Source: Natronococcus sp. A-GB7 (GTDB lineage: Archaea > Halobacteriota > Halobacteria > Halobacteriales > Natrialbaceae). Taken from it: DNA of 64,000 nucleotides. The notes beneath the pieces are model-generated. The model ran no database searches. It was not told the DNA's origin and saw nothing but the letters and a program-made list of their open reading frames with translations. The position numbers were made by a program, and so were the translations under genes. Location of the stretch: the NCBI RefSeq assembly GCF_029688865.1, contig NZ_JARUKV010000013.1:1-64000 (forward strand), written 5' to 3'. This document shows positions 22,844 through 38,728 of the stretch, in pieces (within the stretch, counting starts at the first letter, position 1; each line of letters begins with the position of its first letter).

Positions 22844-24721
22844 ATGAGAGAAGACGATTCGAACGCCGATGGTACCGACCCCGACGACCGCCTCGAGAGC
22901 CTCGCGGAGCGCGTCGACCGCCTCGAGAATCGGACGCTCTCGACGACGGCTCCGGACGGGACGCGGGTTTCACTGGACCGACTGCTCGCCGTCGGACTCA
23001 CGCGCCGGCAGGCGCTCGCGGCGCTCGGCTTCGTCGCCGCTGGCGCGACGACCGCCGCGGCGATCCGCCAAGCAGTCGGGACCGTCGGGACGGACGACGA
23101 GGGTATCGCCGAAGACCGGTTCGACGCTCGATCACTCTCCGGGGCGGTCGAGGGCGTCGTCTTCGCTCACGAGTACGACTCTTCGCAGGAAGCGGTCGAC
23201 GACACCGAGGACGGCAGCACCGTGGTCTTCCTCTCGGTACACGGCCCCTACGAGGAGTTCGTGATCCCGCCCCGCGATGACCTCACCCTCACGTCGGACG
23301 GCGCGCTCGTCGAGACGTCGCTCGAGACCGGGTCGGACAGGTATAACGAGATCATCGGGTCGCCGACCGACCACCCCGACTACGAGGACGGCCAGGAGCT
23401 CGGTTCGACGACCGACGTCGTGACGACGGATATCGACATCGGCGAGGAACGACTCGAGGTCGAGGATGCGTCCGTCCTCGAGGCCGGCGATCTCGTCTTG
23501 CTACACGACCTGGCCGACGAGTGGATCGCGTACCCCGCCAGCGATACCGATCCGCCGCACAGAGCCGAGTTCCTCCAGGTGGACGACGTCGATGAGGACG
23601 AACTGTTCTTCCGAAACGGGGTCTCCCTCGAGTTCGAGAATCGCGAGCTCCAGGTGTCGGCGTTCGATCCAGTCTGCTCGCATCTCATCATCGAGGGGTT
23701 TAGGCTGTTCGGAGCGTACGACGGCGGATCGGAGTACGAGGAGCGAGGAATCGTCACCGACTACTGCCGCGACGTGACGGTTCGCGACGTCTCGACGTCC
23801 AACGTCGGTCGACTCTCGGTAAGTGCCCGGAACTGTTACGGCGTGCGCGTACGCGACGTCGACGTGCGTAACTCCGGGCGGTACGGCGTTCAGGCGTCGG
23901 GAGCGTCGAAGAACGTCCGTCTGGACGGTATCTACGCCTCCCAAATGCGGTACGCGACCCAGTTCATCTCCTTCGGAAGCGAGTTCGGACCGACGAACGG
24001 GGTTACGGTCTCGAACTCCCTCGCTGCCAACTGCGACTACGGGTTCAACGTCCACCCGGGCGCGTACCGCGTTTCGTTCCACAACTGCAACACGCTCAAC
24101 TCGAGGGGATACCGGATTCGGTCGCCGAAGACGACCGTTCACGGCGGTCAGCTCGACACCGGTGGTGGCGGAGCGTTCGCGCTCGAACAGCGGTTCAGCG
24201 ATACGCGCATCTCCGGCGTCCACATCAGCGAACTCGACGACGTACGGGTGGCCAGCCTCGAACCGACCGGACCGGTATCGGGAGTGGTGTTCGAGAACCT
24301 CACGCTGAGTACCGATACGTTCGTCGGCTCGACGGCGTTCGCGATCGCCGCTCGAGGGTCGGAGGGGACGATCGGAGACGTCGTGGTCGCCGACTGTCGT
24401 CTCCCGAGCGTTCAGGAGTACCACTGTCTCGTGGGCGGCTCCGCCGCGGCGGTCACCGGTGATATTACCGTCGAGCGGTGTACGATGCGGGGAAACCGTG
24501 CGATACTCGAGTGCGAAGCGACCGAAGGGGCCGACGCGGACGACGCGATCTTCGTCGTTCGGGACTGTATCCAGCGCGATCTTGCCGACTCCGATCCGTT
24601 CCGCGACCACGCTTACCGGGACCGGCTGGTCGTTCTGGACAACGATTTCCTGGATGGCTCGGTCGACGAGGTCGAGGAGGCGCTTGCATGGGACGGAAAT
24701 AGGGAGATCGATACCTCTTGA
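22844..24721 (+). CDS. Exported right-handed beta-helix (pectin-lyase-like) protein with coiled-coil/RR N-terminus
   Basis: The product is 625 residues. Residues 15-35 form a coiled coil (RLESLAERVDRLENRT); then come TTAPDGTRVSLDRLLAVG and twin arginines with a hydrophobic stretch, LTRRQALAALGFVAAGATTA. This N-terminal module is shared with 28037-29107, 30473-30862 and 33101-33604. The rest has short imperfect beta repeats (RDVTVRDVSTSNVGRLSVSA, YGVRVRDVDVRNSGRYGVQA, VTVSNSLAANCDYGFNVHPG) typical of a parallel beta helix that binds or cleaves polysaccharide. Such helices can be trimeric, which fits the coiled coil. Catalytic residues cannot be assigned. Confidence 0.8.
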   Translation: MREDDSNADGTDPDDRLESLAERVDRLENRTLSTTAPDGTRVSLDRLLAVGLTRRQALAALGFVAAGATTAAAIRQAVGTVGTDDEGIAEDRFDARSLSGAVEGVVFAHEYDSSQEAVDDTEDGSTVVFLSVHGPYEEFVIPPRDDLTLTSDGALVETSLETGSDRYNEIIGSPTDHPDYEDGQELGSTTDVVTTDIDIGEERLEVEDASVLEAGDLVLLHDLADEWIAYPASDTDPPHRAEFLQVDDVDEDELFFRNGVSLEFENRELQVSAFDPVCSHLIIEGFRLFGAYDGGSEYEERGIVTDYCRDVTVRDVSTSNVGRLSVSARNCYGVRVRDVDVRNSGRYGVQASGASKNVRLDGIYASQMRYATQFISFGSEFGPTNGVTVSNSLAANCDYGFNVHPGAYRVSFHNCNTLNSRGYRIRSPKTTVHGGQLDTGGGGAFALEQRFSDTRISGVHISELDDVRVASLEPTGPVSGVVFENLTLSTDTFVGSTAFAIAARGSEGTIGDVVVADCRLPSVQEYHCLVGGSAAAVTGDITVERCTMRGNRAILECEATEGADADDAIFVVRDCIQRDLADSDPFRDHAYRDRLVVLDNDFLDGSVDEVEEALAWDGNREIDTS

Positions 24722-24788
24722 GCACCGGAATTATCAAAACTACCCGAGTAGCGTTAAGTGAGCGCTGCTGTACAGCATTCGGTGAGCA

Positions 24789-25622
24789 ATGAGTAAGCTC
24801 CGCTCGGCTCGAGCGATCTACGCACGCGGCGGACTCCGCTCGCTGCTCGTTGCCTCGGAAAGCCACACGAGGGAACTATTCCGGCAGTCCGTGCTCTCTC
24901 ACGGGGAGCGAAGACTTCGATATCTCCAACACAGACGACGGTACGGTGATGCGGCACCCTGTCCGGGACGACTCGTCCACGTCGACCCGAGCGCGATCGA
25001 GTACGTGCTGTTTCCGCCGCTTCACAGGGATCACGCGGTGACCAGGTACGATACACACGTGCTCGCCGGCGAATGGGATAGATCTCCGATTCGTGACGAA
25101 TCGTGGTTCTCGACGCGGATGCTGACCGAGTCCGATGTCGACCGCCGTCACCGCTTCCGACTCGAGGAGTATGCATTTTACCGGGCACTCGAACGTGGCC
25201 GTGACAGCTACGAGGCGTACCTCGAGGCGTGGCAGGAACAGCTCTCGGAGTTTCCCAAGGGGCGGTCGACGAAGTACGGCGACACGGAGTACGTCGCGAA
25301 CCACTACGACCTCTACGTCGATATCGACGAGAACGGATACAAGTCGGGGCGAGAACTCGGTAGACGCCTTCTGTATCCGGAGTTTTACGACGTCCCGGTG
25401 TACATCGGTCGCCATGGAGAGTTCATTTCGGCCGGGTTCGGAAAGCACAGGATCGTGATCGCACAGCTCCTCGAACTGGATTCGATCCCGGTTCGTGTAA
25501 ACGTCCGTCACTCTCGCTGGCAGAAGCGACGGAACGCCGCGGTCCGCACGGGCGACGGCGAGTTCCAGAGGGATCTTCCGGCAGAGCATCCCGATTTGCG
25601 ACCTCTGATGGCTACCGACTGA
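24789..25622 (+). CDS. ParB/sulfiredoxin-fold-like protein, copy 1
   Basis: The product is 277 residues. The N-terminal half is basic and helical. The C-terminal half reads VYIGRHGEFISAGFGKHRIV IAQLLELDSIPVRVNVRHSRWQKRR, resembling the ParB box (GxHRxxxAxxLGxxxIPV) of the ParB/Srx fold. Two paralogs lie at 37177-37950 and 37937-38728. In this copy the usual DGRHR is FGKHR. No ParA, DNA-binding helix-turn-helix or partition site is nearby. Known relatives in the fold include sulfiredoxin and free-amino-acid kinases, so an ATP-dependent modification in glycan biosynthesis is possible; this is inference only. Confidence 0.6.
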   Translation: MSKLRSARAIYARGGLRSLLVASESHTRELFRQSVLSHGERRLRYLQHRRRYGDAAPCPGRLVHVDPSAIEYVLFPPLHRDHAVTRYDTHVLAGEWDRSPIRDESWFSTRMLTESDVDRRHRFRLEEYAFYRALERGRDSYEAYLEAWQEQLSEFPKGRSTKYGDTEYVANHYDLYVDIDENGYKSGRELGRRLLYPEFYDVPVYIGRHGEFISAGFGKHRIVIAQLLELDSIPVRVNVRHSRWQKRRNAAVRTGDGEFQRDLPAEHPDLRPLMATD

Positions 25623-25649
25623 CCAACTGGCGATCGGCGCTCGTCGTCA

Positions 25650-27110
25650 TCAGTTCAGTATAGCCAGCGCGTCACGAGGTTCAACCAGCCCGATCGCGAC
25701 CGAGCATCCAAGCCAGAGTGCGAATCCGATTCCAACGACGAGAAACAACGTAATCCAGCCGGTCACGTACCCGACGAGAACGAACACGACGAGGGACATC
25801 GATGCGGTTACACCCAGTATTCGCCCGAGCCGTTTCGTTATCTTTCCGACGTCGAGACCGAACTCGTAATGAATGAGCAGAACGCACGCCAGCGTATACG
25901 CCCCGTGGGTCACGACGGTCGATATCGCCGCACCGACGACACCAACCGTCGGGATGAGGACGATGTTGAGAAGGAGGTTACAGACCGCGGCCACGCCCCG
26001 GATTACCGCTCTGGTTCGTGCACGTCCCAGGTAGTCGAGACTGTGGCTCGTGATTTCGAGGACGGCGACGAAGACGGCGTACACGGCCAGAACCTGCAGA
26101 ACGGGAACCGCGCCCCTGTACTCGGACCCGAACAGGAGCTCGACCACCGGACCCGCGACGAGAATCAGTCCGGCCGTCGCGGGAATGTAGAACGTCAACG
26201 CCGTGAGCAGCGTGTACTCGTATATCCGTCCGGCGCGCTCGGTGTTCTGTTTCGCCTTTTCGGCGCCGAACGTCGGCGAGAGCGTAAAGCCCGCGGCGCT
26301 CATCGGCTTGTCGATGAACGTCGTTATCTGATTGGCGACGACATAGAAACTCACGGCCGCCGGGTTGAGAAAGAATCCGATGAGAACGATGTCCATCCCC
26401 TTGTCGAGGTTGGCCATCGTGCTTGTCGCGGTTATCGGGACGGAGTACTCCGCGATCCGACGCCGGAGTCCGTCCTCCATGACGTGACTGATCGACTCAG
26501 TGTAGTTGTCGCGAACGAGGACGGCACCGACCACCGTCGAAAGAAAGGAAGCGAAGATATAGCCGCCGAGAGCGCCGAAGGCACCGAATCCGAGTAGCAC
26601 GAACGCGACGGCGAAGACGGCGGTGCCGGCGTTCCTGGTGACTTTGACGAGAACGCTGTGTTCGATCCGTTCGAACCCCTGTAGCATGTACTTGAAGTAG
26701 ACGAACAGCGTCTCGAAGATCAGATACAGCACACCGAGCAGCAGGAACGGAGCGAGGTTCGGTTCGCCAACCCGAACCGCGATCGCCCGGTGGCTGAACA
26801 GCAACACCAGACAGGTGATCGCGATCGTCAGCGCGTTCATCCAGAACGACGAGCGAACGATGTGGGGTACCTGTCCCGGATTCGTCTCCTTGTACTCCGA
26901 GATGTACCGGGCCGCGGATCGGGCAATTCCGAGCTTCGAGAAGGTCAGAAAGATGCTCAGTATCGATAACGCGAGAAAGAGCAGTCCGTAGTCCGTCGGT
27001 CCGAGAAGCCGCGCGAGAACGACCGCAACGACGACTCCGGAGGCTGCTACGACGGCCTGGCCGCCCAGGGCGACTCGAAACCGCGAAACCAATGTCGATG
27101 TCTTCGTCAT
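25650..27110 (-). CDS. Polysaccharide flippase (Wzx-like), second copy
   Basis: The protein is 486 residues from ATG 27110, with about 14 helices. The N-terminal motif GGQAVVAASGVVVAVVLARL LGPTDYGLLFLAL is characteristic of the MOP superfamily; MDIVLIGFFLNPAAVSFYVV and VVGAAISTVVTHGAYTLACV are in the later helices. A TATA-like box at about 27203-27212 (minus strand) lies downstream of the alternative start at 27272, supporting ATG 27110. It is convergent with the ParB-like gene, with a 27-nt gap. Confidence 0.9.
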   Translation of the reverse strand: MTKTSTLVSRFRVALGGQAVVAASGVVVAVVLARLLGPTDYGLLFLALSILSIFLTFSKLGIARSAARYISEYKETNPGQVPHIVRSSFWMNALTIAITCLVLLFSHRAIAVRVGEPNLAPFLLLGVLYLIFETLFVYFKYMLQGFERIEHSVLVKVTRNAGTAVFAVAFVLLGFGAFGALGGYIFASFLSTVVGAVLVRDNYTESISHVMEDGLRRRIAEYSVPITATSTMANLDKGMDIVLIGFFLNPAAVSFYVVANQITTFIDKPMSAAGFTLSPTFGAEKAKQNTERAGRIYEYTLLTALTFYIPATAGLILVAGPVVELLFGSEYRGAVPVLQVLAVYAVFVAVLEITSHSLDYLGRARTRAVIRGVAAVCNLLLNIVLIPTVGVVGAAISTVVTHGAYTLACVLLIHYEFGLDVGKITKRLGRILGVTASMSLVVFVLVGYVTGWITLFLVVGIGFALWLGCSVAIGLVEPRDALAILN

Positions 27111-28036
27111 GATGGAAGCTCGGGACACCCGATCGAGACCGATCGGACGCGGAGCCATCCGGGCGTCCGTGCGCCACGACAGTTGGAGAACGTGCTCTCC
27201 TCGATAAAGATTGTGACCGTCTAGAGCGGCTCGATCGTCGGTTTCGTCCGGCGTGAACCTGGACCGAAGCATCGACGAACGACGATTGAGAGAACGACCG
27301 ACTCCGTAACACGCAGGAGTCGTGGCGCGAGCGACGGTGTCGTTTCCCTACAGTCGCCGGGATCGCCACGAGTGGTTGGTGCCCCGCTGTGGTTCCCGAG
27401 CTCGTCACGGATAGCGTCCCTAGACTAGGCGACTAGTACCACGAAAGACGTCGTTCGGTAACGGAGAGCCGAGTGCCGAACTGCGTTTTGTCGGTTCTCG
27501 TCGTTGATGCCAGAAGGCGAAAAGACCAACGCGCGAAGCCAACCGGGGACTTCGGGCGGACGAATCCGGGATTGAGTCCTCAGACTCGAGGTCGCTACCA
27601 ATAGATTCGCCGAAGGAAGGCGTCGAGCAATCGGTCGACTCGATCGCGACCTGACCGCCCGGGGATAGCTCGATCGGATATCGAGTCCCTGCGATCGAAA
27701 CGAGCGCGGGAAATGTCGAACGTCAATCGACGAACGTCGTGCGCTGTAAACGGAAGATCCGAGAAGTCGGCGACGCCACAACCTTCTGCAACTACCAGAT
27801 GAGCCGGTTCGGGACGGCGCGGTCCGACGAGACGTCGTCCAAAGTCTGATTCTCCGCCGAACGGCGACAATAGCTTTGTGAGGTCACGGTTCATGGAGGA
27901 CTGTTCCGATGAGTTCTCACGCTCGCACGGTCGACCGTCCGCCTCGAAGCTCCTGTCGTTCGTCCGCGACGTTCGGTGGGATGTACCGATCGCATCGTCG
28001 AAACCGCCTCCTCGCGTCGCTCCTCGAGGTACTCTC
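27111..28036. other. Long intergenic region, no gene
   Basis: This region is about 0.9 kb between divergent genes. Open frames here lack acidic composition and families. CTAG occurs three times in 17 nt (27420-27436). It probably contains promoters for the flippase (minus) and the surface-protein operon (plus). It may also contain decayed coding DNA that I cannot recognise. Confidence 0.45.
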
Positions 28037-29107
28037 ATGAGTCCGAGAGACGACTCGGACTCGAGCGACGACGACCGAGTCACGGAGCTCGCCGAGCGGG
28101 TCGAACGCCTCGAGGAGCGGCGCGGCCTTTCGACGACGGCTCCGGACGGCTCCCGGATCTCGTTCGACAAACTGCTCGCGCTCGGCCTCACGCGTCGACA
28201 GGCGCTCGCGGCGCTCGGCTTCGTCGCCGCCGGCGCGACGACCGCCACGGCGATCGGTCGGTCGCTGACGGCCGTCGAGGCCGACGACGGGGACGAGAAC
28301 GACCTCGACGTGCGCTCGATCAGATCGGAGGAGCAACGGATCGTCGACGGCGACGGGGACGGCGAGTTCGCGTGGCGAGTCGAGGACGGCAACCTCGTCC
28401 TCGAGGGGCTCGAGGGAGAGTTCGCCGTTCGAAACCCCCGGGCCGACGTCGACGGCGAAAGTCGGGCGATCGTCTACGAGGGAGGAACGTTCGAGGGAGC
28501 TCGGTTCATCGAACTGGAGTACGAGAGCACGGAGCCAGCGCTCGGGGACGCAGCCGAGGCGGGGGAACGTTCCGTCTCGTACGGGCGCCAGGCCGGGCGT
28601 GATAACGATGACCGACAGAACGTCGCCGTCGGTGACCGTGCCGGCGACGGATCGGCGGGTGAACGGAACGTCTACGTCGGTCGGGAGGCCGGCCGGGAGG
28701 CCGAGGGGGAGGAGAACGTCTACGTCGGACAGGCGGCCGGCCAGGAGGTCGCGGCGGATCAGAACGCATTGGTCGGCTCACGGGCGGGGGTCGAATCCGC
28801 CGTCGAAGAGTCAACGGGAGTCGGCCAGGGGGCGCTGAGCGAGGCGGACACACGGCGAGTTCAAGCCCTCGGCAGACAGGCGGGCCGAGAGGCGTCCTCC
28901 GAGAACAGCATCTTCGTCGGTCGCAGAGCGGGACAGAACTGCGAGGGGGACGTCGTCTACGCCTTCGGCAACGAGGTGGCCAGCGACTGGGACGAGGATT
29001 ACACTATGCTGGTCGGCGACGACGAGGGGAACGTGTTTCTCCGGCTCGACCTCGAGGAGGGGAATCTCGAGATCGCGGGCGAACTCACCGAGAACGCCGA
29101 TCTATGA
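28037..29107 (+). CDS. Surface fibre-like protein: coiled coil, RR segment, VGxxAG repeats
   Basis: The product is 356 residues from ATG 28037. A coiled coil (VTELAERVERLEERRG), TTAPDGSRISFDKLLALG and LTRRQALAALGFVAAGATTA form the shared N-terminal module. From about residue 175 there are tandem repeats of 14-21 residues: NVAVGDRAGDGSAGER, NVYVGREAGREAEGEE, NVYVGQAAGQEVAADQ, NALVGSRAGVES and others. They resemble YadA-type trimeric adhesin heads and phage or bacterial tail fibres. The C-terminus LEIAGELTENADL is repeated in 31928-32776. The stop overlaps the PHP-like gene (ATGA). Likely a trimeric cell-surface fibre. Confidence 0.75.
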   Translation: MSPRDDSDSSDDDRVTELAERVERLEERRGLSTTAPDGSRISFDKLLALGLTRRQALAALGFVAAGATTATAIGRSLTAVEADDGDENDLDVRSIRSEEQRIVDGDGDGEFAWRVEDGNLVLEGLEGEFAVRNPRADVDGESRAIVYEGGTFEGARFIELEYESTEPALGDAAEAGERSVSYGRQAGRDNDDRQNVAVGDRAGDGSAGERNVYVGREAGREAEGEENVYVGQAAGQEVAADQNALVGSRAGVESAVEESTGVGQGALSEADTRRVQALGRQAGREASSENSIFVGRRAGQNCEGDVVYAFGNEVASDWDEDYTMLVGDDEGNVFLRLDLEEGNLEIAGELTENADL

Positions 29108-30240
29108 GGGTCGTCGATCCCTACGAGCGCGTCGACTGGACGGCGGACGACCACCACCTCGCACAGCTTCACGTGCATCCGAACTACGGCGACAAGGGAA
29201 CGCCCGCCGAGGTCATCGACGCGTACCACGAGCTCGGTTATACGATCCTTCCCGTTCAGTCGAAGAGCGATCTCCTGACGACCGACGGCGAGCACGCGAC
29301 GGCGTACCCGTGGACGGAGCTGGCGGGGACGGAGATCGATCCCGAATCGTCCAATCAGGACGATCCGCCCGACTGGACGGAGAACCGCGATCCCGAGGAG
29401 CTGGGTATGGTGGCGATCGAGAGCGTCGAGATCGATCGGGTGGAACACATGACGCACTTCTTCGGCTCGTTCGACGAGGCCGATCCCGAGAGCCAGGGTA
29501 CCCAGTTCCACCGGGCGCGAGCGTCCATCGAAACGACCGAGCGCGGAATCACGGGACTTGCCCACCCCGGACGGTACCTGGAACACGACGTACGGGGCGA
29601 CTGGCATCGCGGCGAGTGGGAGCGATACGACGTCCTCTACCGCAACCGACCGCGGTTCTTCGGCCTCGAGGTGTTCAACGGCGCGTTCCATCCCGACGAC
29701 CGAATCCTCTGGGACGACCTCCTGACGAAGTTCGCGCCACAGAGACAGATTCTCGGCACTGCAGTCGACGACGCCACGACAGTCGATGTCGACGACGAGT
29801 CTGTCGACAGGGGCCGCACCGTCTTCCTTATGTCCGACGAGGAGTTCGAACCGGGCCACGAATCCGGAGCCATCTACGACGTGTGGCTTCGAGGACAGTC
29901 CTACTTCTCGCAGGTTCAGAACAGCCAGGAGGACGACCACCTGCGGATCGAGCGCGTGGAACACGACGAACGAGCGGGTACGCTGACGGTCGAGCCCGAC
30001 GACTGGGAGTGGATCAACTGGGTCGCCGACGGCGAGCCGATCCACGCGGACGACGAGACGCTCGAGTACGACGACTACGCCGACGAGATCGACGGCTACG
30101 TGCGGTTCGAAGCCGGCGAAGGGGACAACAGCTACCCCAGCGACGAGACCTGGACCGGCAGCGGCGACGGTCCGCGGTCGGTCGTCTGTACCCAGCCGTT
30201 TCTCACGACGGGAACGCTCGCTCGGGTGGAACGGAGCTGA
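29104..30240 (+). CDS. PHP-domain-like protein, copy 1
   Basis: The 378-residue protein begins with ADDHHLAQLHVHPNYGDKGT, where the HxH matches PHP motif I of metal-dependent phosphoesterases. It is followed by PAEVIDAYHELGYTILPVQS, GLAHPGRYLEHD (motif with HPG) and FFGLEVFNGAFHPDDRIL. The expected TDH-type motif II is not conserved, so metal binding may be partial. The C-terminal third is a beta-rich appendage (DDWEWINWVADGEPI ending in VVCTQPF). No signal peptide is visible; it is translationally coupled to the fibre gene. Two paralogs follow (30859-31926, 34203-35264). Confidence 0.7.
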   Translation: MRVVDPYERVDWTADDHHLAQLHVHPNYGDKGTPAEVIDAYHELGYTILPVQSKSDLLTTDGEHATAYPWTELAGTEIDPESSNQDDPPDWTENRDPEELGMVAIESVEIDRVEHMTHFFGSFDEADPESQGTQFHRARASIETTERGITGLAHPGRYLEHDVRGDWHRGEWERYDVLYRNRPRFFGLEVFNGAFHPDDRILWDDLLTKFAPQRQILGTAVDDATTVDVDDESVDRGRTVFLMSDEEFEPGHESGAIYDVWLRGQSYFSQVQNSQEDDHLRIERVEHDERAGTLTVEPDDWEWINWVADGEPIHADDETLEYDDYADEIDGYVRFEAGEGDNSYPSDETWTGSGDGPRSVVCTQPFLTTGTLARVERS

Positions 30241-30472
30241 CTGCGAGTCCCACCCGTGACGGTCCCGCCAGTGAACGTACTCCAGAGTTGGTCAGTGTTC
30301 GCGGGCGGACTGTACGGGACGCTTCGGAAACGTCTTTGTAAACCCACAGTGCAGGATGGAGACGGGACGCGAAAGCGGCCGATATTTGCCCGGGAGCCGC
30401 TCGAGGGACGGAGCGCTCGCTCTCCCCGCTACGGTCGGACGAGCATCTATCGTGGCCGCTTGCGAGTAGACC

Positions 30473-30862
30473 ATGAGTTCACGACGAAACCCACCGAATC
30501 CGGACGAGATCAACGACCGACTCGAGGCGATCCTCGAGCGAGTCGAACGGCTCGAAGAACGAACCGGCCTTTCGACGACGGCACCCGACGGCACTCGAGT
30601 GTCGTTTAGCCAGTTGCTCGCAGTCGGGCTCACGCGACGGCAGGCCCTCGCCGCACTCGGCTTCGTCGCCGCCGGTGCGACGACCGCCGCGGCGATCGGT
30701 CGCTCCGTCGCGACCGTCGAGGCCGACGACGAGGACGGCGAACCGGACGAACTCGACGTTCCCTCGATACACGTCGACGAATCGATCGGCATCGGTGAGT
30801 ATCGGTGGGAACTCGACGATGGAAACGGGGATGACGTCCTCTCGTTAGTGTACGAACCATGA
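30473..30862 (+). CDS. Short protein with coiled-coil/RR N-terminal module
   Basis: The product is 129 residues. The shared module is complete: coiled coil NDRLEAILERVERLEERTG, then LSTTAPDGTRVSFSQLLAVG and LTRRQALAALGFVAAGATTA. It is followed by an acidic linker (ATVEADDEDGEPDELD) and only about 30 further residues. It is thus a module without a large passenger. At DNA level the module is very close to the copy at 33101-33604. The stop overlaps the next gene (ATGA). A TATA-like box, CATCTATCG, lies near 30445, fitting a leaderless start. Confidence 0.7.
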   Translation: MSSRRNPPNPDEINDRLEAILERVERLEERTGLSTTAPDGTRVSFSQLLAVGLTRRQALAALGFVAAGATTAAAIGRSVATVEADDEDGEPDELDVPSIHVDESIGIGEYRWELDDGNGDDVLSLVYEP

Positions 30863-31926
30863 CCGTCGAAGTCGGACCGAGCCAGTACGAGGCGCTCGAC
30901 TGGTCCACCGTCGAGCACAACTGGGCCGCGTGGCACCTCCACCGGCGCGGGACCGACGGCTGGCACGAGATCGTCGACGCGCTGGTCTCCCAGGGGTACT
31001 CGATAATCAGTATCGGCGAGAAGCAGGGTAGCCAGCCGTGGCCGTGGACCGACTGGGACGACGTCGAAGACGACGAGTACGACCACGAGAGCCGCGACCC
31101 CGAGGAGGAGGGGGTGATCGGACTGCCCGGGCTCGAGTGGAACGACTCCGAGCACGTCGTCTGGATCGGCTCGACGCTCTACCAGGACGAGATCGACGAA
31201 CCGATCTATCGGTTCCGCGACGCGGTCAGGGAGGTTCGAACCAGGGAGGATCACCACTTCCCGCGCAGCAGGAACGGGGTCACGTTCCTCGCTCACATCG
31301 GACGGTACAGCGACGACCCGGACGAGTGGGAGCGCTGGGAGGCAGTACACAACCTCTGGTCGCCGGAACGACACGGTTTCCTCGGCGTCGCGTTCGGCGG
31401 CCGAAACCAGACCGTCGTCGACGTCTGGGATCGCCTCCTCGAGGAGATCGTCCCGAACCACCCCGTCTACGGCTTCTACGAGATGGACAACAGCGACTCC
31501 GAGGTCGGCGAGGATTTCGACGTCCGGCTCACTACCGTCCTCACCGAGTCATCGCTCGACCCGACGGATCAGACCGACGGCCGAGAGCGCGTCATCGATC
31601 GCCTCCGGAGCGGACAGTTCCTCGCCCACTTCCGCGGTGAGTGGGACCCAGACGAGGAGGACCGACCGCGACTCCCCAGAGTCACCGAAATCGCGGTCAG
31701 CGACGATCGACGAACGATCTCTATCGAGGCCGAAGCGTACGACGAGATCACGTGGATCAGCCGTGGCGAAGAGGTCGAAACCGGGAGTAGTATCGACGTC
31801 GACGAGGAGATGGTTCCCTACGTCCGGGCGGAACTCTCCGGCGTCGACCACGACGACACCGTCACGTTCGTCCAGCCGTTTTACGTGCGGACCGAAACGA
31901 CCGTGGCCAGCTTCGGAGGTGAATAG
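30859..31926 (+). CDS. PHP-domain-like protein, copy 2
   Basis: The product is 355 residues. The HxH survives in NWAAWHLHRRGTDGWHEIVD; then GVTFLAHIGRYSDDPDEWER aligns with the AHPGRY block of copy 1, and HGFLGVAFGGRNQTVVDVWD with its LEVFNG block. Motif II and the last metal ligand are not evident. A C-terminal domain (DEITWISRGEEVETGSSIDV) ends in VTFVQPFYV, parallel to VVCTQPF in copy 1 and LTLTQPWGI in copy 3. It lies between the short module protein and the repeat protein. Divergence suggests a separate substrate or a binding role. Confidence 0.65.
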   Translation: MTVEVGPSQYEALDWSTVEHNWAAWHLHRRGTDGWHEIVDALVSQGYSIISIGEKQGSQPWPWTDWDDVEDDEYDHESRDPEEEGVIGLPGLEWNDSEHVVWIGSTLYQDEIDEPIYRFRDAVREVRTREDHHFPRSRNGVTFLAHIGRYSDDPDEWERWEAVHNLWSPERHGFLGVAFGGRNQTVVDVWDRLLEEIVPNHPVYGFYEMDNSDSEVGEDFDVRLTTVLTESSLDPTDQTDGRERVIDRLRSGQFLAHFRGEWDPDEEDRPRLPRVTEIAVSDDRRTISIEAEAYDEITWISRGEEVETGSSIDVDEEMVPYVRAELSGVDHDDTVTFVQPFYVRTETTVASFGGE

Positions 31927-31927
31927 G

Positions 31928-32776
31928 ATGCAGGTGTTCCCGGACCGAATTCGGTGGAACAGCCGAACCGAGTGGACCGAGCCCGCGAGGTTCGAATCGC
32001 AGTCGACGTTCGAGCGGGAGATCAGCCTGCAGGACGACGTCGATCTCGAGTCGGGACGCATATTCACTCCGACGTCGTTCGTCATCGGAAACGATTTCGG
32101 CGGCGAGGACCCGTTCGACCTCGAGGACCTCCCGCAGAGTACGATCCTGATCGGCGATCTAACCGGCGTCGACGTCGACGACGGTGGGGAGTGCGTTCAC
32201 ATCGGTGTCGGATCGGGTCTCCAACAGGCGGGGGAGCGAACGGTGTTCGTCGGGTACCGAAGCGGTCAGGAGTCGGACGGTCGACGAACGACCGGGGTCG
32301 GGTACGACGCGGCGAGGGGTGCAGCGTCCGCCGAAGGAACGCTCATCGGATACGAGGCGGGCCAGGACGCCGTCGGCGAAGGGAACGTGGCCGTCGGCTG
32401 TCGTGCGGGTCGGGACTACGAGGGAGAGTACGGGGCGGTGCTGGGACACGAAGCCGCCCAGGAGGCCGAGGGAGAGCGGATCGTCGCGGTCGGCGCACAG
32501 GCTGGGGGGGATGCAGACGACGACAGATCGGTCCACGTCGGTTACTGGTCCGGACTGAGCAGCGAGGGAGAGCGAAGCGTGTTCGTCGGCTATCAGGCGG
32601 GTCGCGACAACACGGGCGACGGCGTCATCGGGTTGGGATACGAGGCCGGTCGCGAGAACGACGACGACAACGTCCTGTTGTTGACGGACAACGAGGGGAC
32701 GCTCCGCGGACGGATGGACCTCGAAAGCGGCGATCTCGAGATCGCCGGTGAACTAATGGAGAACACAGAGCTATGA
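31928..32776 (+). CDS. VGxxAG-repeat fibre-like protein without RR module
   Basis: The product is 282 residues from ATG 31928. Residues 1-90 form a unique acidic N-terminal domain. Then come about eleven repeats such as RTVFVGYRSGQESDGR, GTLIGYEAGQDAVGEG, NVAVGCRAGRDYEGEY, RSVHVGYWSGLSSEGE and RSVFVGYQAGRDNTGD, ending in NVLLLTDNEGTLRGRMDLES and LEIAGELMENTEL. The closing block matches 28037-29107. The repeats resemble YadA heads and the NVFLGYQAG repeats of bacterial and phage fibres. With no signal of its own, it may trimerise with, or be exported by, the neighbouring module protein. Confidence 0.72.
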   Translation: MQVFPDRIRWNSRTEWTEPARFESQSTFEREISLQDDVDLESGRIFTPTSFVIGNDFGGEDPFDLEDLPQSTILIGDLTGVDVDDGGECVHIGVGSGLQQAGERTVFVGYRSGQESDGRRTTGVGYDAARGAASAEGTLIGYEAGQDAVGEGNVAVGCRAGRDYEGEYGAVLGHEAAQEAEGERIVAVGAQAGGDADDDRSVHVGYWSGLSSEGERSVFVGYQAGRDNTGDGVIGLGYEAGRENDDDNVLLLTDNEGTLRGRMDLESGDLEIAGELMENTEL

Positions 32777-32940
32777 GAGTCGAAATCGAGCTGTCGGACC
32801 ACCACGAGGCGATGCTCGAGGAGCTGTCGGAACTTCCCGACGCAGATCCGCAAGCGGAACTCGGGGAAATCCTCGAGCCACACGCCGAACGAGCGATTCA
32901 CGACGCCTACCAGCACCACCGTCGAAACGGAACCCTTTGA
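32773..32940 (+). CDS. Small acidic hypothetical protein
   Basis: A 55-residue protein whose ATG overlaps the previous stop (ATGA). The sequence MRVEIELSDHHEAMLEELSE and the His-rich C-terminus (YQHHRRNGTL) suggest a short strand followed by helices. No family is recognised. Its retention in the coupled operon and its haloarchaeal composition argue that it is real. Confidence 0.65.
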   Translation: MRVEIELSDHHEAMLEELSELPDADPQAELGEILEPHAERAIHDAYQHHRRNGTL

Positions 32941-32951
32941 ACACAGCTAGC

Positions 32952-33104
32952 ATGAGTACAACAATCCACTTGCGCAAGAACCGATATTCGGTGACGGAAG
33001 TCCGCCCCTTCGCGATCGACAGTCCCGAGACACGGACGAAACCGACGGCCCAGACGCTGGCGGTCCAGTCGTCTCGCTCGAAGCCGACCGAGGAGGACGC
33101 ATGA
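32952..33104 (+). CDS. Small hypothetical protein
   Basis: A 50-residue frame, MSTTIHLRKNRYSVTEVRPF, then a Ser/Thr/Lys-rich tail; basic to neutral rather than acidic. Its stop overlaps the ATG of the next gene (ATGA, 33101-33104), the same coupling as the rest of the operon, which is the main evidence that it is translated. No function is apparent. Confidence 0.55.
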   Translation: MSTTIHLRKNRYSVTEVRPFAIDSPETRTKPTAQTLAVQSSRSKPTEEDA

Positions 33105-33604
33105 GCCCGCGCCGAACTCCATCAGCTCCCGATAGCGACGACGATCGCTTCGACGAACTCCGCCAGCGGGTCGAACGGCTCGAAGAACGAACCGGTCTCT
33201 CGACGACGACACCGGACGGCTCCCGGATCTCGTTCGGCCAGCTGCTCGCGGTTGGACTCACGCGTCGACAGGCGCTCGCGGCGCTCGGGTTCGTCGCCGC
33301 CGGCGCGACGACCGCCGCGGCGATCGATCGCTCCGTCGCGACCGTCGAGGCCGACGACGAGGACGGCGAGGAGTTCGACGAGCAGACCGAACTTGAGTCG
33401 GTGAGCACGGCGTACGCGGAGATCGAGGAACTCGTCGCCGACGACGGCGAGGTTCGACGGTTCGAAGCGATCGATGCGTCGGTCGTTCCGCGCTACGAGA
33501 CCGAGGACGAGATGCTCGACCTTACCGATAGCGCTGGTAGTCTCGGGCTGATCGAAACCCAGGGCGGGAGACACAAGCTGAAGTGGCGGACGGAGGACGT
33601 ATGA
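33101..33604 (+). CDS. Coiled-coil/RR module protein, short passenger
   Basis: The product is 167 residues. The shared module FDELRQRVERLEERTGLSTT, then DGSRISFGQLLAVG and LTRRQALAALGFVAAGATTA, is followed by ATVEADDEDGEEFDEQTELE and about 70 residues ending in LGLIETQGGRHKLKWRTEDV. The gene overlaps the next by four nt (ATGA). The module sequence is nearly identical at nucleotide level to that at 30620-30745, indicating recent duplication or gene conversion. Confidence 0.7.
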   Translation: MSPRRTPSAPDSDDDRFDELRQRVERLEERTGLSTTTPDGSRISFGQLLAVGLTRRQALAALGFVAAGATTAAAIDRSVATVEADDEDGEEFDEQTELESVSTAYAEIEELVADDGEVRRFEAIDASVVPRYETEDEMLDLTDSAGSLGLIETQGGRHKLKWRTEDV

Positions 33605-34200
33605 CCGAACTCAGCGGCCCCGCGACGTTTACCGAACTGAATCTGGCATCGCTTCCGTTCGCGCTCGACTTCGCGTATCGCGACGAGGACGACGAAAGCG
33701 GCTTCGTCGCGGAGACGTCCGGAGACGGCGAGATCGACCTCGGCAACGGCGACGGGGCTCGATTGAGCGGGTCCGGCGAGGGTGACGTGGCGCGGATTCG
33801 AGCGGCCGATACCCAGGGCGGCAGCCTCCGCCGCGTCGACTTCTTCCGCTGGGAGCATCGGGGCGACAACGATGGCGATGCCGCGATCGTCGGTCTCACG
33901 GATAGCGAGGGAGACGGGCCGACGGGTTGGGATGCGATCGCCGAGGAGTTCGTCGTCGGCGACAGTTCAGTGTCGTCGGAGACCGAGTTCGAGACCGGTC
34001 GCCACTACCAGCTGTGGATGCTCTCCGACGACGTGCCGGGGCGAACGACGTTCGTCCTCTATCACGACGGCGAAGTCGAGGTCGAGGAGATCGACGATAC
34101 GCTCAGCGAGAACTACGAGAACATCGTCTATCTCGAGAACACGGACGTCGAGATCAGACTGCACGCCCACGCCTGGGGACCGCTCCCGCCCGAACTGTAA
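33601..34200 (+). CDS. Beta-rich acidic hypothetical protein
   Basis: The product is 199 residues, mostly predicted beta strands: SLPFALDFAYRDEDDESGFV, GEGDVARIRAADTQGGSLRR, RHYQLWMLSDDVPGRTTFVL and NTDVEIRLHAHAW near the C-terminus. There is no signal peptide. The gene is coupled to the module protein upstream and lies 2 nt from the PHP-like gene. Probably a passenger or ligand-binding subunit of a surface complex; this rests on context only. Confidence 0.6.
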   Translation: MTELSGPATFTELNLASLPFALDFAYRDEDDESGFVAETSGDGEIDLGNGDGARLSGSGEGDVARIRAADTQGGSLRRVDFFRWEHRGDNDGDAAIVGLTDSEGDGPTGWDAIAEEFVVGDSSVSSETEFETGRHYQLWMLSDDVPGRTTFVLYHDGEVEVEEIDDTLSENYENIVYLENTDVEIRLHAHAWGPLPPEL

Positions 34201-34202
34201 CC

Positions 34203-35264
34203 ATGGCAGAGATAGTGGACGACTGGACCGATTCAGCCGACTTCGACGACCCGAGGAAGACGGGGGACCACCACCACGCGAGGACGGACGAGCCGATCGA
34301 TACCCCCTACGGCGTCCTCGACTACGCGGTCGGCGACGGTCCCGACACGGACGGAAACGCGATCACCGAGTCGTACGACCTCTTCTACATGATGAACTCG
34401 AGCGGGCCGACCCACTGGCCGTGGGACGATCCGCCGACGGGCGAATCCAGGGATCCGGTCGAACTCGGCGTCGTCGCGATCCCGGCCTACGAGCTTCACT
34501 TCGGGACCCACACGTACGGCCTGTTTTCGACGGTCGATCAGGCGAGCTCGAAGATCGGCGGCGTGCCCGAAAAACACCAGAGCACGCTCGACAACCGAAA
34601 GCACGCGAACGGTTACCCCGAACCGATCGTCGGGTTCGCCCACGTCGGTCGGTACGTCGGCGAAGAGACGATCACAGATCGCGAGTACGAGCGGTTTCGA
34701 TTCAACGTCGAACGGCTCGCTCGACAGGACGTCCCGTCGGTCGTCGGAACTGGCCGCAACTCGGAGTATCCCCACGAGGAGACCCGGCTGCTGTGGGACC
34801 GCCTGCTGACGGAGTTCGCACCCGCGTACCTCCCGATCAAGATCGCTCACAACGATCCGCGGGGTGACGAGGACGGCGTCGTCGGCGACGGACTCGACAG
34901 GCGGTGGTACTCTACGCTCATGAGCGCCGACGAGTACGACGTCGACGACCAGGCAGCGACCAGAGTAGCGGCCCGCGAAGCGATCGGACGGCGAGCCGTT
35001 CTCGCGCACTTTCGCGATTCGTTCGACCCCGATGGATCGATTCCCGAGCCTCCAGTCGTCGAGGACGCGGGAGTCGACGGAGCTACCGTCTACGTCGAGT
35101 CCGATGCGGACGAACAGGTCTGGATCACGGCCGGAGGAGAGGGGGTCGAAACCGGCACGAGCGTCGATGTTTCCGAAGGCGAGCGGTATCTCCGGTGTGA
35201 GCTGTGGAACGACGACGAATCGGCGCTCACTCTGACTCAGCCGTGGGGGATCCGCTCCGAGTGA
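34203..35264 (+). CDS. PHP-domain-like protein, copy 3
   Basis: The product is 353 residues. The N-terminus has DHHHARTDEPIDTPYGVLDY, with His residues at the place of motif I. IVGFAHVGRYVGEETITDRE aligns with the AHPGRY block, VPSVVGTGRNSEYPHEETRL and LPIKIAHNDPRGDED follow, and the C-terminal domain reads VYVESDADEQVWITAGGEGV and ends in ALTLTQPWGI. Several PHP metal ligands appear replaced. The gene is 2 nt from both neighbours' ends, so it belongs to the operon that ends with the methyltransferase-kinase gene. Confidence 0.65.
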   Translation: MAEIVDDWTDSADFDDPRKTGDHHHARTDEPIDTPYGVLDYAVGDGPDTDGNAITESYDLFYMMNSSGPTHWPWDDPPTGESRDPVELGVVAIPAYELHFGTHTYGLFSTVDQASSKIGGVPEKHQSTLDNRKHANGYPEPIVGFAHVGRYVGEETITDREYERFRFNVERLARQDVPSVVGTGRNSEYPHEETRLLWDRLLTEFAPAYLPIKIAHNDPRGDEDGVVGDGLDRRWYSTLMSADEYDVDDQAATRVAAREAIGRRAVLAHFRDSFDPDGSIPEPPVVEDAGVDGATVYVESDADEQVWITAGGEGVETGTSVDVSEGERYLRCELWNDDESALTLTQPWGIRSE

Positions 35265-35265
35265 G

Positions 35266-37137
35266 ATGAGCGTGTTAGCCTGTCCCGAGTGTTTCGGTAC
35301 CCTGGAGTCCCGAGAGGACGTGACCTGTGGGTCGTGTGGCACCTCGTTCCGAACAAGGTACGGAATCCCCAGCTTCCTCCCCACAGAGAGCAGTGACAGC
35401 GGGCTACTGTCGGACGACGAGTTAGCGGAGTTCGCGAACCGTGCGGAAGAACAGTCCGTTCGCCGGGCGATAGCAGCCGTCGACAACGAAAAGCGACGAC
35501 AAGCGATCAGCAACGAACTCAACTCGGTCAACAGGGACAACTGGCGGATTCTGGCCTCAAGCTACCTCGGTGGTCGATGTCTCGACCTGAACGCGGGGTT
35601 CGGACGACGGGCCGGGCAACTCGCACCGCTGGTGGACGAGGTGTACGCGCTCGATTCGAACGTTCACAAGCTCCGGGTGCTATCGGCACGCGACGAGTTC
35701 CGAGACGCCGGTCCGGTGTATCCGGTACATGCCACCGCCGACGCCCTTCCGTTCGGTCCGAACGTTTTCGATACGGTGGTTCTCGAGTACTTCGACGGAT
35801 CACTCGCCGATCTCCGTACGACGCTGCGAGCGGTTGTGACGCGTCTCGAGCCGGGGTCGTCGGTCGTCGTGTTCACGAGCGGGGGGTTCGGGGTCGGTAA
35901 AGCCCTCGACGACGTCCTTGGCGGAGGACGACCGTCCGTCTCCAGTTGCAGACCGATGACACACGGGCGTCTGAGGAGTGCGTTGCGATCGCTGGGGTTT
36001 TGGGATCTCGAAACGCTCAGCTTTCTCCCTACGTATTCCGCGACTAAGTACGTCTTCGACGGAGGGAACGTCCACAACTACGACGTCGCGTTGAGTTCGG
36101 AACTCGATGGACGGTTTCGAGACGTGTCGAAACTCACCACGGCGGCGTTCGATCGAGCAGCGGTGCTTTCGGAGCTCTCGCCTATCTCCTGTATTTTGGC
36201 TCGTTACGAGCCGGACGAGTGGAGTCGTCGCTCGCACCGGACCACCGGGCATGTAGTTGAACCGCAAACTGACTCAAGAGTCGTCGTTTCAGGAAGGGCG
36301 AGGGCGATCGTCCTGGATTACTTGGAGGAGGGTCTCCAGCGGATTCACAAGGTTCCGAACCGGAGACGACACGGGTCGATAAATCGAAACGAGGGGAGAG
36401 TCGTCGACCACCTGCGATGGAACGGTGACGAGCTCTCCGATACGTTTCCGAGAGGCGACGTCGTCACATCTTCGATGGGACCCATTAGACGAGAGGAACC
36501 CGTCTCGGGAACGCAGCTCTCCGAGTGCCTCTCGAACGGTACTGTCTCGTTCGAGGCGTGTATCGACACGGTGTTGGAATGGGTGATCCAGTTTCAGCGG
36601 CGGTACCGACGGAGTTGCGACGAACGTGTCCGGACCGAAGTACGGGGAGCAGCTTCGGAGTACTGGCCGGACGAGTCGTTTCAGGGGGACGTTACGTTGT
36701 TCGGCGTGCCCGTTCACGGCGATCTGGTTTCTGGAAACGTATTCGTCGAGGCCGACCGCGTCTCCGCCGTGATCGACTGGGAGTACGGTCGGCTGAACGG
36801 GAACCCGATCGTCGATTCGGGATACTTCCTGCTGCGCCTGGGCAAGGAGTTGTTCGGGACGTTCGACGAGGGGTTTGAAACCCTGTTCGTCCGGGACAAC
36901 GGTTACAGTGTCGCTCTGAGTGCGGCCATAGATCGGTACTGCGAGCAACTAGAGATATCGAAGGAGGCGTTCTATTACTACCTGCCGCTGGCGTACGCAC
37001 ACAGAATCGAGATCGAACGGGAACACGGGATACGCGTATCGGAGCGGACGATCGACAAGCGGCTCGGTCGGATCGATCTCGTACGGAGTTACGAAATGGA
37101 TGAACTTCGAGCGCTGCGGTCATCGACCCGTGGCTGA
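35266..37137 (+). CDS. Zinc-ribbon / methyltransferase / APH-like kinase fusion (WbdD-like architecture)
   Basis: The product is 623 residues. A zinc ribbon has CxxC pairs at 6/9 and 21/24 (ACPECF, TCGSCG). The SAM-dependent methyltransferase core includes RCLDLNAGFGRRAGQLAPLV, EVYALDSN, VHATADALPFGPNVFDTVVL EYFDG. The C-terminal third is an aminoglycoside-phosphotransferase/kinase fold with VPVHGDLVSGNVFVE (catalytic HGD...N) and AVIDWEYGRLNGNPIVDSGY. Methyltransferase plus kinase in one chain is the layout of WbdD, which caps O-antigen with methyl phosphate and so sets chain length. Last gene of the coupled operon. The stop codon lies in an IS200/IS605-like hairpin, so the C-terminus may have been altered. 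Confidence 0.8.
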   Translation: MSVLACPECFGTLESREDVTCGSCGTSFRTRYGIPSFLPTESSDSGLLSDDELAEFANRAEEQSVRRAIAAVDNEKRRQAISNELNSVNRDNWRILASSYLGGRCLDLNAGFGRRAGQLAPLVDEVYALDSNVHKLRVLSARDEFRDAGPVYPVHATADALPFGPNVFDTVVLEYFDGSLADLRTTLRAVVTRLEPGSSVVVFTSGGFGVGKALDDVLGGGRPSVSSCRPMTHGRLRSALRSLGFWDLETLSFLPTYSATKYVFDGGNVHNYDVALSSELDGRFRDVSKLTTAAFDRAAVLSELSPISCILARYEPDEWSRRSHRTTGHVVEPQTDSRVVVSGRARAIVLDYLEEGLQRIHKVPNRRRHGSINRNEGRVVDHLRWNGDELSDTFPRGDVVTSSMGPIRREEPVSGTQLSECLSNGTVSFEACIDTVLEWVIQFQRRYRRSCDERVRTEVRGAASEYWPDESFQGDVTLFGVPVHGDLVSGNVFVEADRVSAVIDWEYGRLNGNPIVDSGYFLLRLGKELFGTFDEGFETLFVRDNGYSVALSAAIDRYCEQLEISKEAFYYYLPLAYAHRIEIEREHGIRVSERTIDKRLGRIDLVRSYEMDELRALRSSTRG

Positions 37138-37176: not shown

Positions 37177-37950
37177 CTACGGGTCGATGTCCGGGTGTTC
37201 CTCGAGGTGGCTCGGAACACCGTCGGCTGCTCCGCGTAAAATTTCGTCCCTCGTTCGTTGCCAGCGACGGTGTCTCACCAGAACAACGACGGGGATCGTA
37301 TCCACACCGACGATCTTGGCGAGCGCCAATCGATGGCGCCCGTCGTAGAAAATGAACTCCCCGTTTCGGTCGATATTGACGGCTACTTCGCCGTTTATTT
37401 TCCGGTACGATTCTCGCCTCGGACGAGACGCCATCGGGTCCTTCCACCGTTCCGTTAGCAGCTCGGCCTGTGATTTATAGCCGAACTCGCTCATAGCTTC
37501 GAACATCGAATCCAACTTCTCACACCGATCCCGGAGATCGGCTTCGGTCGTGTGCCCCCACATCGCAGAGGGGTCCTCGCCGTTCCGAATCCGTCGAAGC
37601 AACGACTGGTAGTACCTCGTCTCCTCCCACTCTCTCCCCTCGACGAAGCGTTGTTCGAACGACTCGAGCACATACATGTGGAACTCACCGTCGCGTTCAC
37701 CGAAGTCGTACGTCTCCCGATCCCACGAACCACCGACAACTGTTCCGGCGACCTTCCGGTTCGGTTTGTCGAACGGTATCATTGATCTGGTGACGGTCGT
37801 TGGATCGACCGTGACGAGTTCGTACGGGTCGATGCGCGAGTGGTATCGAACGTCGTTGTAGAGCTTTCTCGCTCGAAGCCGCTTGTCGACGTAGCAGTCA
37901 CGCGCCTCGAGCAACCACCTCGAAGTTACTGCGCCGTTACGAACTCTCAT
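37177..37950 (-). CDS. ParB/sulfiredoxin-fold-like protein, copy 2
   Basis: The product is 257 residues from ATG 37950. The N-terminal half includes IDPYELVTVDPTTVTRSMIP; the core GEVAVNIDRNGEFIFYDGRH RLALAKIVGVDTIPVVVLVR matches the ParB box motif and the two paralogs. It overlaps the upstream copy 3 by 14 nt. The shared end (HRRWQRTRDE, then HLEEHPDIDP) parallels copy 1 (EHPDLRPL). Suggested role: ATP- or phosphate-binding enzyme in glycan synthesis. A DNA role is unlikely without a helix-turn-helix. Confidence 0.6.
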   Translation of the reverse strand: MRVRNGAVTSRWLLEARDCYVDKRLRARKLYNDVRYHSRIDPYELVTVDPTTVTRSMIPFDKPNRKVAGTVVGGSWDRETYDFGERDGEFHMYVLESFEQRFVEGREWEETRYYQSLLRRIRNGEDPSAMWGHTTEADLRDRCEKLDSMFEAMSEFGYKSQAELLTERWKDPMASRPRRESYRKINGEVAVNIDRNGEFIFYDGRHRLALAKIVGVDTIPVVVLVRHRRWQRTRDEILRGAADGVPSHLEEHPDIDP

Positions 37951-38728
37951 GTCCCGGTAAATTGCCGGCGTACGGTTTGTAGCCTGGACAGAGCGGGTGT
38001 CCGTACTCCGTCTCTGCGAACTCGTACTCCAGCGTCCGTTTGCTCTCAAGGAACCCCTCGTGAACGGCGACTACCCTCACCGGGATCCGATCGACGTCCA
38101 GAATTTTCGCCAGCGAGAGACGGTGGCGACCGTCGACGAAGAGCAACTCACCGTTCCGTCCGATATCGACCGCCACCTCGTGGTAGTGTTTTTTGTACGG
38201 AAGGATCTTCTCGTACGGCGTTCCTCGTCCCTGCGCGAGCAGTTCCGGCTGCGTCTGATAGCCGTGGTCTTTCATATTCGTATAGAGCCGATCGAGGTAT
38301 CGACAGCGCTCGAACACTCCGGTTTCTGACGTTCGGTTGTCCATCACGCGCTCACCGTTTCGCACCCGTACGACCCGTGACTGGATCGCCGACATCTCCG
38401 ACCACGCGATATCGTCGACGTGGCGCTCGAGCAGGCAGCGATACCACTCGGACGAATCGACGAACCGCTCGTCGTTTCGATCCCAGTCTCCGTCTAGTAC
38501 GAGGCCGGCCATCGTCCAGGCGTTTTTGTGTGCGTTCGGCCGGCCGGTGACGCGCTCGATCTCGCTCGGTGGTGCCCAGAGTACTACGAACGGGTCGAAG
38601 TAGCTGGACGTGTACTTCAGCAGACCGAGATCGCTCAAGAGTACCAGACATATCGGGCGAAGCTGTACGATAGCTGACCGCAACAGTCCCGCGAAACGGA
38701 GTGTGCGGTCGAGTGGTTTAGGAGTCAT
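37937..38728 (-). CDS. ParB/sulfiredoxin-fold-like protein, copy 3
   Basis: The product is 263 residues. The region before the core has FDPFVVLWAPPSEIERVTGR and WYRCLLERHVDDIAWSEM. The core reads HEVAVDIGRNGELLFVDGRH RLSLAKILDVDRIPVRVVAV, very close to copy 2. Its start overlaps the 3' end of the membrane-protein gene by 11 nt and its end overlaps copy 2, so the three genes form one coupled operon read leftward. Confidence 0.6.
   Translation of the reverse strand: MTPKPLDRTLRFAGLLRSAIVQLRPICLVLLSDLGLLKYTSSYFDPFVVLWAPPSEIERVTGRPNAHKNAWTMAGLVLDGDWDRNDERFVDSSEWYRCLLERHVDDIAWSEMSAIQSRVVRVRNGERVMDNRTSETGVFERCRYLDRLYTNMKDHGYQTQPELLAQGRGTPYEKILPYKKHYHEVAVDIGRNGELLFVDGRHRLSLAKILDVDRIPVRVVAVHEGFLESKRTLEYEFAETEYGHPLCPGYKPYAGNLPGHESS

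Follow-up and report, generated by a model that had tools for sequence, protein, structure and literature searches.

A Putative Coiled-coil Twin-arginine Leader Common to Spike- and Fiber-like Proteins in a Surface-glycan Locus of Natronococcus sp. A-GB7

The window analyzed in the present study is a stretch of 64,000 nucleotides (nt) from Natronococcus sp. A-GB7 (NZ_JARUKV010000013.1, positions 1 to 64,000), which forms part of contig C5 in the 4.88-Mb draft genome of this haloarchaeon. The locus, a surface-glycan cluster, encodes two flippases, a glycosyltransferase, an epimerase, a nucleotide-sugar dehydrogenase, and a polysaccharide deacetylase. Four open reading frames (ORFs) on the plus strand, designated bh, fib, s1, and s2 (Table 1), have an N-terminal leader of 80 residues in common. 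Translation of fib starts at the ATG of position 28037 rather than at the GTG of position 27878. The leader begins with an acidic N terminus and two to three heptads (e.g., DRLEAILERVERLEER), with the coil at approximately residues 14–31. A conserved linker (STTAPDG-x-R-[VI]S-x3-LLA-x-GL) separates the coil from a twin arginine (RR) at residues 53–56, which lies in TRRQALAALG. A weakly hydrophobic stretch then extends to ATTAAAI, followed by VATVEADD or a similar sequence.

The initial annotation of this DNA placed a shared block at the N termini of a beta-helix protein, a repeat-fiber protein, and two short proteins. The ORF and genome-wide searches agreed with this description; the module was present in exactly four ORFs, all in the window, and no further copies were found in the genome. 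The sequence strings initially given for the block are not exact in each copy (RVDRLENRT and VSL in bh, TTTPDGSRISF in s2). Similarly, a coil is present in the region preceding RR (n-region), but does not occupy all of it as first described because the linker intervenes. No NCBIfam family scored above the cut-off for the module-bearing proteins.

Table 1. Genes and shared modules of the locus (positions in the window)
Feature	Position	Strand	Description
bh	22844..24721	+	625 aa; coil-Tat leader (about aa 1–85) on a right-handed beta-helix of the tailspike/depolymerase type
Shared module in bh	22910..23065	+	RVDRLE...ATTAAAI; RR = aa 54–55
fib	28037..29107	+	356 aa; coil-Tat leader on a 16-residue-repeat fiber; distal half and C terminus tailed-virus-fiber-like
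Shared module in fib	28097..28255	+	RR = aa 53–54
PHP1	29104..30240	+	signal-less, PHP-like; 4-nt ATGA overlap with fib
s1	30473..30862	+	129 aa; short coil-Tat protein; about 45 residues beyond the predicted cleavage site; proposed escort
Shared module in s1	30539..30697	+	RR = aa 55–56
PHP2	30859..31926	+	signal-less, PHP-like; ATGA overlap with s1
fib2	31928..32776	+	repeat fiber like fib, no coil-Tat leader
55-aa ORF (MRVEIELSDHHEAMLEELSE...)	32773..32940	+	4-nt overlap with fib2; acidic, probably helical
s2	33101..33604	+	167 aa; short coil-Tat protein; proposed escort
Shared module in s2	33167..33325	+	RR = aa 55–56
199-aa protein	33601..34200	+	signal-less; ATGA overlap with s2; lectin-like beta sandwich guessed
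PHP3	34203..35264	+	signal-less, PHP-like; 2 nt after the 199-aa protein gene
Methyltransferase and APH-type phosphotransferase fusion	35266..37137	+	last gene of its run; Pfam APH 5e-9, Methyltransf_11 7.5e-6

A family of 270-nt direct repeats was detected here independently of the protein comparison. The leader copies were 83–92% identical in amino acids (aa) and 79–89% identical in DNA over 159 nt, and agreement at fourfold-degenerate sites was 51–84%, with 40% expected by chance. Since silent sites have drifted while residues were kept, the protein sequence of the leader is under selection, and a recent DNA duplication was ruled out as the cause of the similarity. Therefore, the DNA identity between copies, initially called very high, had been overstated.

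Profile searches of other genomes, which the initial annotation had proposed as a check, detected the same leader in five more. These leaders, of an LTRRQ type, precede a 150-aa protein of the Natrinema sp. DC36 plasmid NZ_CP084478 (G074), beta-helix-like bodies in G099 and G388, another such body in G201, and a short fiber-like body in G299; the latter four bodies were assigned by eye and had no Pfam match. Scans of genome contigs and viral contigs with the module, fib, or the PL23 protein described below as queries gave no matches, nor did tblastn of the module against plasmids. Weak matches (G122, G344, G408, and those examined among the matches with E values of approximately 0.005) were dropped as chance or ordinary proteins.

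In an alignment of the nine LTRRQ-type leaders (four from the window and five from relatives), RR was invariant. It is followed by an uncharged hydrophobic region (h-region; ALAALGFVAAGATT), as in signals for the twin-arginine translocation (Tat) pathway. Signal-peptidase sites occupied the same columns (the arrow marks the cut): ANA↓Q, AQA↓Q, and VRA↓Q in relatives, and VEA↓D in s1, s2, and fib. Three matches to TatC were found on contig C4 of the same genome, and Tat is the predominant export route in haloarchaea (PMC2910488). Because RR is invariant, the cleavage register is kept, and the genome has matches to TatC, RR is not a chance occurrence. A non-functional RR (e.g., as part of a helix-turn-helix) was rejected on the basis of the h-region and cleavage register. 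The Tat-like appearance noted initially was thus borne out. Since the leaders of the relatives end at A-x-A and VEA↓D is in register, the sequence evidence gives good support to a cleavable Tat signal, the n-region of which contains a coiled coil.

Leaders of other types also combine a coil and a Tat signal. NP_RS13910 on the Natronomonas pharaonis plasmid PL23 has a coil, SRR, and AAA↓Q, followed by a knob that resembles C1q on visual inspection and matched structural proteins of virions; a leaderless relative of this knob is ORF52 of the tailed virus BLv36. The third type, in G033, was at first a weak profile match; its long coil precedes SRR and a beta-roll head of GGGxxN repeats. A search with the G033 protein, after which N termini were read, gave 14 distinct Tat-bearing beta-roll proteins of haloarchaea.

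These sequences bear on the possibility that the leader remains uncleaved as a signal anchor, with the coil in the cytosol, three h-regions of each trimer spanning the membrane, and the fiber fixed on the surface. An anchor would suit bh, in which a clean A-x-A site is missing, and the residues behind the h-regions of the window, a charged one and then further apolar ones. However, A-x-A or V-x-A occupies the same columns in most relatives, the beta-roll fibers have DPxGQ or DAxGQ behind A-x-A, and the h-region is short and rich in Ala and Gly. An anchor therefore appears quite improbable. Of the two options in the initial wording, exported or anchored, export is the more likely because the cleavage site aligns across the family.

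In each of the four window leaders, the coil has an exact match to the motif RhxxhE, either RVERLE or RVDRLE. PMC5940361, citing Kammerer 2005, describes RhxxhE as stabilizing parallel trimeric coiled coils. The motif was also present in the leaders of G074, G299, G388, and PL23. The background consisted of about 1.2 Mb of stretches sampled from four other haloarchaeal genomes and the contig of the window itself. Across the sampled proteins, 2 out of 60 charged two-heptad windows contained RhxxhE (about 3% chance per window), and 37 Tat-like signals had n-regions with a median of 14 residues. RhxxhE preceded RR in nine of the 14 Tat-bearing beta-roll proteins, ten of which had heptads, and in none of the 37 sampled n-regions (Fisher p 7e-7), a comparison made with a home-made gene caller and Tat rule on sequences that are not fully independent, the 37 including some multi-pass membrane proteins. 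Because the G033 query contained its own leader, we recounted the proteins that matched on the body only (5/9 versus 0/37, p 9e-5). In contrast, beta-roll loci without a Tat signal had no RhxxhE near the N terminus (0/8). Thus, the coil accompanies the Tat signal rather than the head. Descriptions of a Tat n-region with a coiled coil were absent from the literature searched, which lacked most subscription journals.

The linker could be recognized in each of the nine LTRRQ-type leaders, even in the two that lack RhxxhE. This would agree with an ordinary Tat signal, the n-region extension of which is not a trimerizer but a chaperone or quality-control site, with the linker (DG..VS...LL..GL) docking a cytosolic factor; proofreading chaperones for Tat substrates exist (PMC4273604). 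However, a docking site leaves the RhxxhE coil unexplained in the unrelated beta-roll and PL23 leaders, which keep the coil and lack the linker, and no candidate factor was identified. We regard this explanation as unlikely and favor a trimerizing coil.

The bodies behind the leaders resemble viral spikes and fibers. The bh body matched Pfam Beta_helix (3.9e-9), the PHROG tail spike family phrog_7458 (3.5e-12), and the capsule K1 depolymerase 9k4a in the PDB (3.5e-6), and the fib body matched a PHROG tail spike (9.3e-9). Furthermore, fib and the leaderless fib2 have 16-residue repeats and the C-terminal end in common with ORF_00037 of the Halorubrum tailed virus OP630576 (E 5e-23 for fib2). 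The N terminus of ORF_00037 lacks a signal and instead matches viral families that include a minor tail protein. For two bodies, the viral counterparts (ORF_00037 and BLv36 ORF52) have neither coil nor Tat signal. Since leader-bearing bodies have leaderless viral relatives, tail-spike modules occur with either N-terminal end; thus, they appear to carry a particle-binding end in viruses and the coil-Tat leader here. Tailspike- and tail-fiber-type bodies are homotrimeric where known.

The matches to viral tail proteins would also be expected if the module-bearing proteins were virion fibers of a hidden or decayed provirus, in which case the leader would matter only for virus assembly at the membrane. 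In the Natrinema DC36 plasmid and PL23, the coil-Tat gene lies just upstream of a relative of CDS0012 of the lemon-shaped virus LSV-48N (PMC12714723), and neighbors in G299 and G201 resemble CDS0012-type proteins by eye, the one in G299 likewise directly following the coil-Tat gene. However, the window contains glycan genes, and the neighbors' sequences place the G099 and G388 copies in glycan loci as well. Moreover, no capsid, terminase, or integrase was noticed in the window, in which no dedicated scan for them was made. We consider a provirus very improbable. In the window genome, the probable target of the cargo is the surface glycan of the cell itself, which the cargo would bind or trim.

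The CDS0012 relative of the Natrinema DC36 plasmid (L108 8136–9989; 35% identity over 492 residues) carries an apparently erroneous annotation as a TauE/SafE sulfite exporter. NZ_CP084478, the Halobaculum element pCBA1158-3, and PL23 may be lemon-shaped-virus-like elements. Elsewhere in the window, three proteins of similar size (24789–25622, and 37177–38049 and 37937–38728 on the minus strand) have an ending of the type VDxxRxGxFxFxDGRHRLxLAKxLxxDxIPVRVxVRHxxW in common; the 24789–25622 protein had no Pfam match.

By their spacing, the genes of 28037–37137 fall into three tight runs that each begin with a coil-Tat gene. The first comprises fib and PHP1, the second s1, PHP2, fib2, and the 55-aa ORF, and the third s2, the 199-aa protein, PHP3, and the methyltransferase-phosphotransferase fusion. 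Gaps within runs are −4 to +2 nt, with ATGA overlaps, and those between runs are 232 and 160 nt. A profile of the three PHP-like paralogues matched 2anu_A (TM0559) at E 5e-4 only; these proteins had no Pfam match, and the AlphaFold model of PHP1 had a predicted local distance difference test (pLDDT) value of 35, too low for a fold comparison. The AlphaFold2 model of the 199-aa protein was all-beta but not usable (pLDDT 41). Among the PHP relatives, those of G104, G275, and G022 each have an N-terminal signal of their own. In G107, a signal-less relative lies 2 nt behind a Tat gene. In the Natrinema DC36 plasmid, the gene for the short coil-Tat protein lies 2 nt before that of a signal-less LamG protein. 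Because coil-Tat genes head tight cassettes of signal-less genes, this arrangement suggests that s1 and s2 are escorts that export their cassette partners by a hitchhiker route. Hitchhiker export through Tat exists; HybO and PaoA carry partners out (PMC4273604).

Two further PHP-like relatives are encoded in the same genome, at C5:67768–68724 (minus strand, about 4 kb past the window) and C25:5770–6591 (minus strand). PHP-like proteins also occur among tail-fiber-looking genes at L092 7783–8874 and L093 6698–8089, and one L092 neighbor weakly matches a tail PHROG. The PHP-like family may also serve viruses.

Based on these comparisons, it is fairly probable that the module is a leader through which homotrimeric spikes and fibers of the cell surface are assembled and exported. 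In the cytosol, a short parallel RhxxhE coiled coil would join three chains and aid the register and folding of the trimeric body. The adjoining twin-arginine signal would then send the folded trimer through Tat. Signal peptidase would cut after an A-x-A-type site (V-E-A↓D in s1, s2, and fib), and the coil would stay behind, which would confine its action to the time before or during export. The leaders of bh and fib are fused to a body. With almost no body of their own, s1 and s2 would be trimeric escorts for the PHP-like, fiber, and probable beta-sandwich partners. Trimer formation before export, as inferred in the initial annotation, now receives indirect support from RhxxhE, the tailspike-type bodies, and the recurrence of the coil and Tat signal on unrelated fiber heads.

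Several points weigh against this reading, among them the makeup of the beta-roll comparison given above. RhxxhE supports a trimer, but is not proof of one. The leaders of G099 and G201 lack RhxxhE, and that of G201 also lacks clear heptads. Several Tat-bearing beta-roll proteins (G319a, G060, G215, and G245) have no coil, so the coil is not obligatory. At the cleavage column, bh has the weaker V-G-T↓D in place of A-x-A. Regarding the escorts, many PHP-like homologues elsewhere are signal-less and standalone, and the PHP-like proteins of the window may therefore be cytosolic.

Whether Tat transports homo-oligomers before or after assembly is a long-standing question, and the dimer data of a 2026 structural study favor assembly first (PMC13323110). 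With a candidate trimerizer beside RR, the order of assembly would be testable through two residues, R and E of RhxxhE, leaving the exported body untouched. The combination of a coil and a Tat signal also offers a sequence signature with which to search archaea for exported trimeric spikes, and tail-spike modules appear to be used outside virus particles, in surface-glycan loci. More tentatively, we speculate that disposable leaders, in which a trimerizing coil lies to the cytosolic side of a Tat signal, are widespread in haloarchaea, that trimeric spikes and the signal-less proteins borne by trimeric escorts assemble ahead of export and lose the assembly device by cleavage afterward, and that tail-spike domains move between virus and host through the exchange of a particle-binding end for such a leader.

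The leader resembles the Tat signals of haloarchaeal secreted proteins in RR, the weakly hydrophobic, Ala/Gly-rich h-region, and the signal-peptidase site; however, its n-region of about 50 residues differs in the RhxxhE coil and conserved linker. Trimeric autotransporter adhesins of the YadA type combine a trimeric head and a coiled coil with an unusually long signal peptide. In contrast to the N-terminal coil and Tat leader proposed here, they are exported by Sec and have a C-terminal outer-membrane beta-barrel; no Pfam match to a YadA-type C-terminal membrane anchor was found in the module-bearing proteins or the beta-roll fiber scanned. The tailspikes and fibers of tailed viruses (PHROG 7458 and 4636; 9k4a) are alike in the beta-helix or repeat-fiber body, whereas their N terminus binds the particle and has no export signal, the place of which is taken here by the coil-Tat leader in a glycan locus. 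The hitchhiker systems HybOC and PaoABC are similar in that a small signal-bearing subunit is encoded beside signal-less partners (PMC4273604). Their partners are redox proteins, whereas the proposed escort would be a homotrimer formed through its own n-region coil, with PHP-like, fiber, and beta-rich partners.

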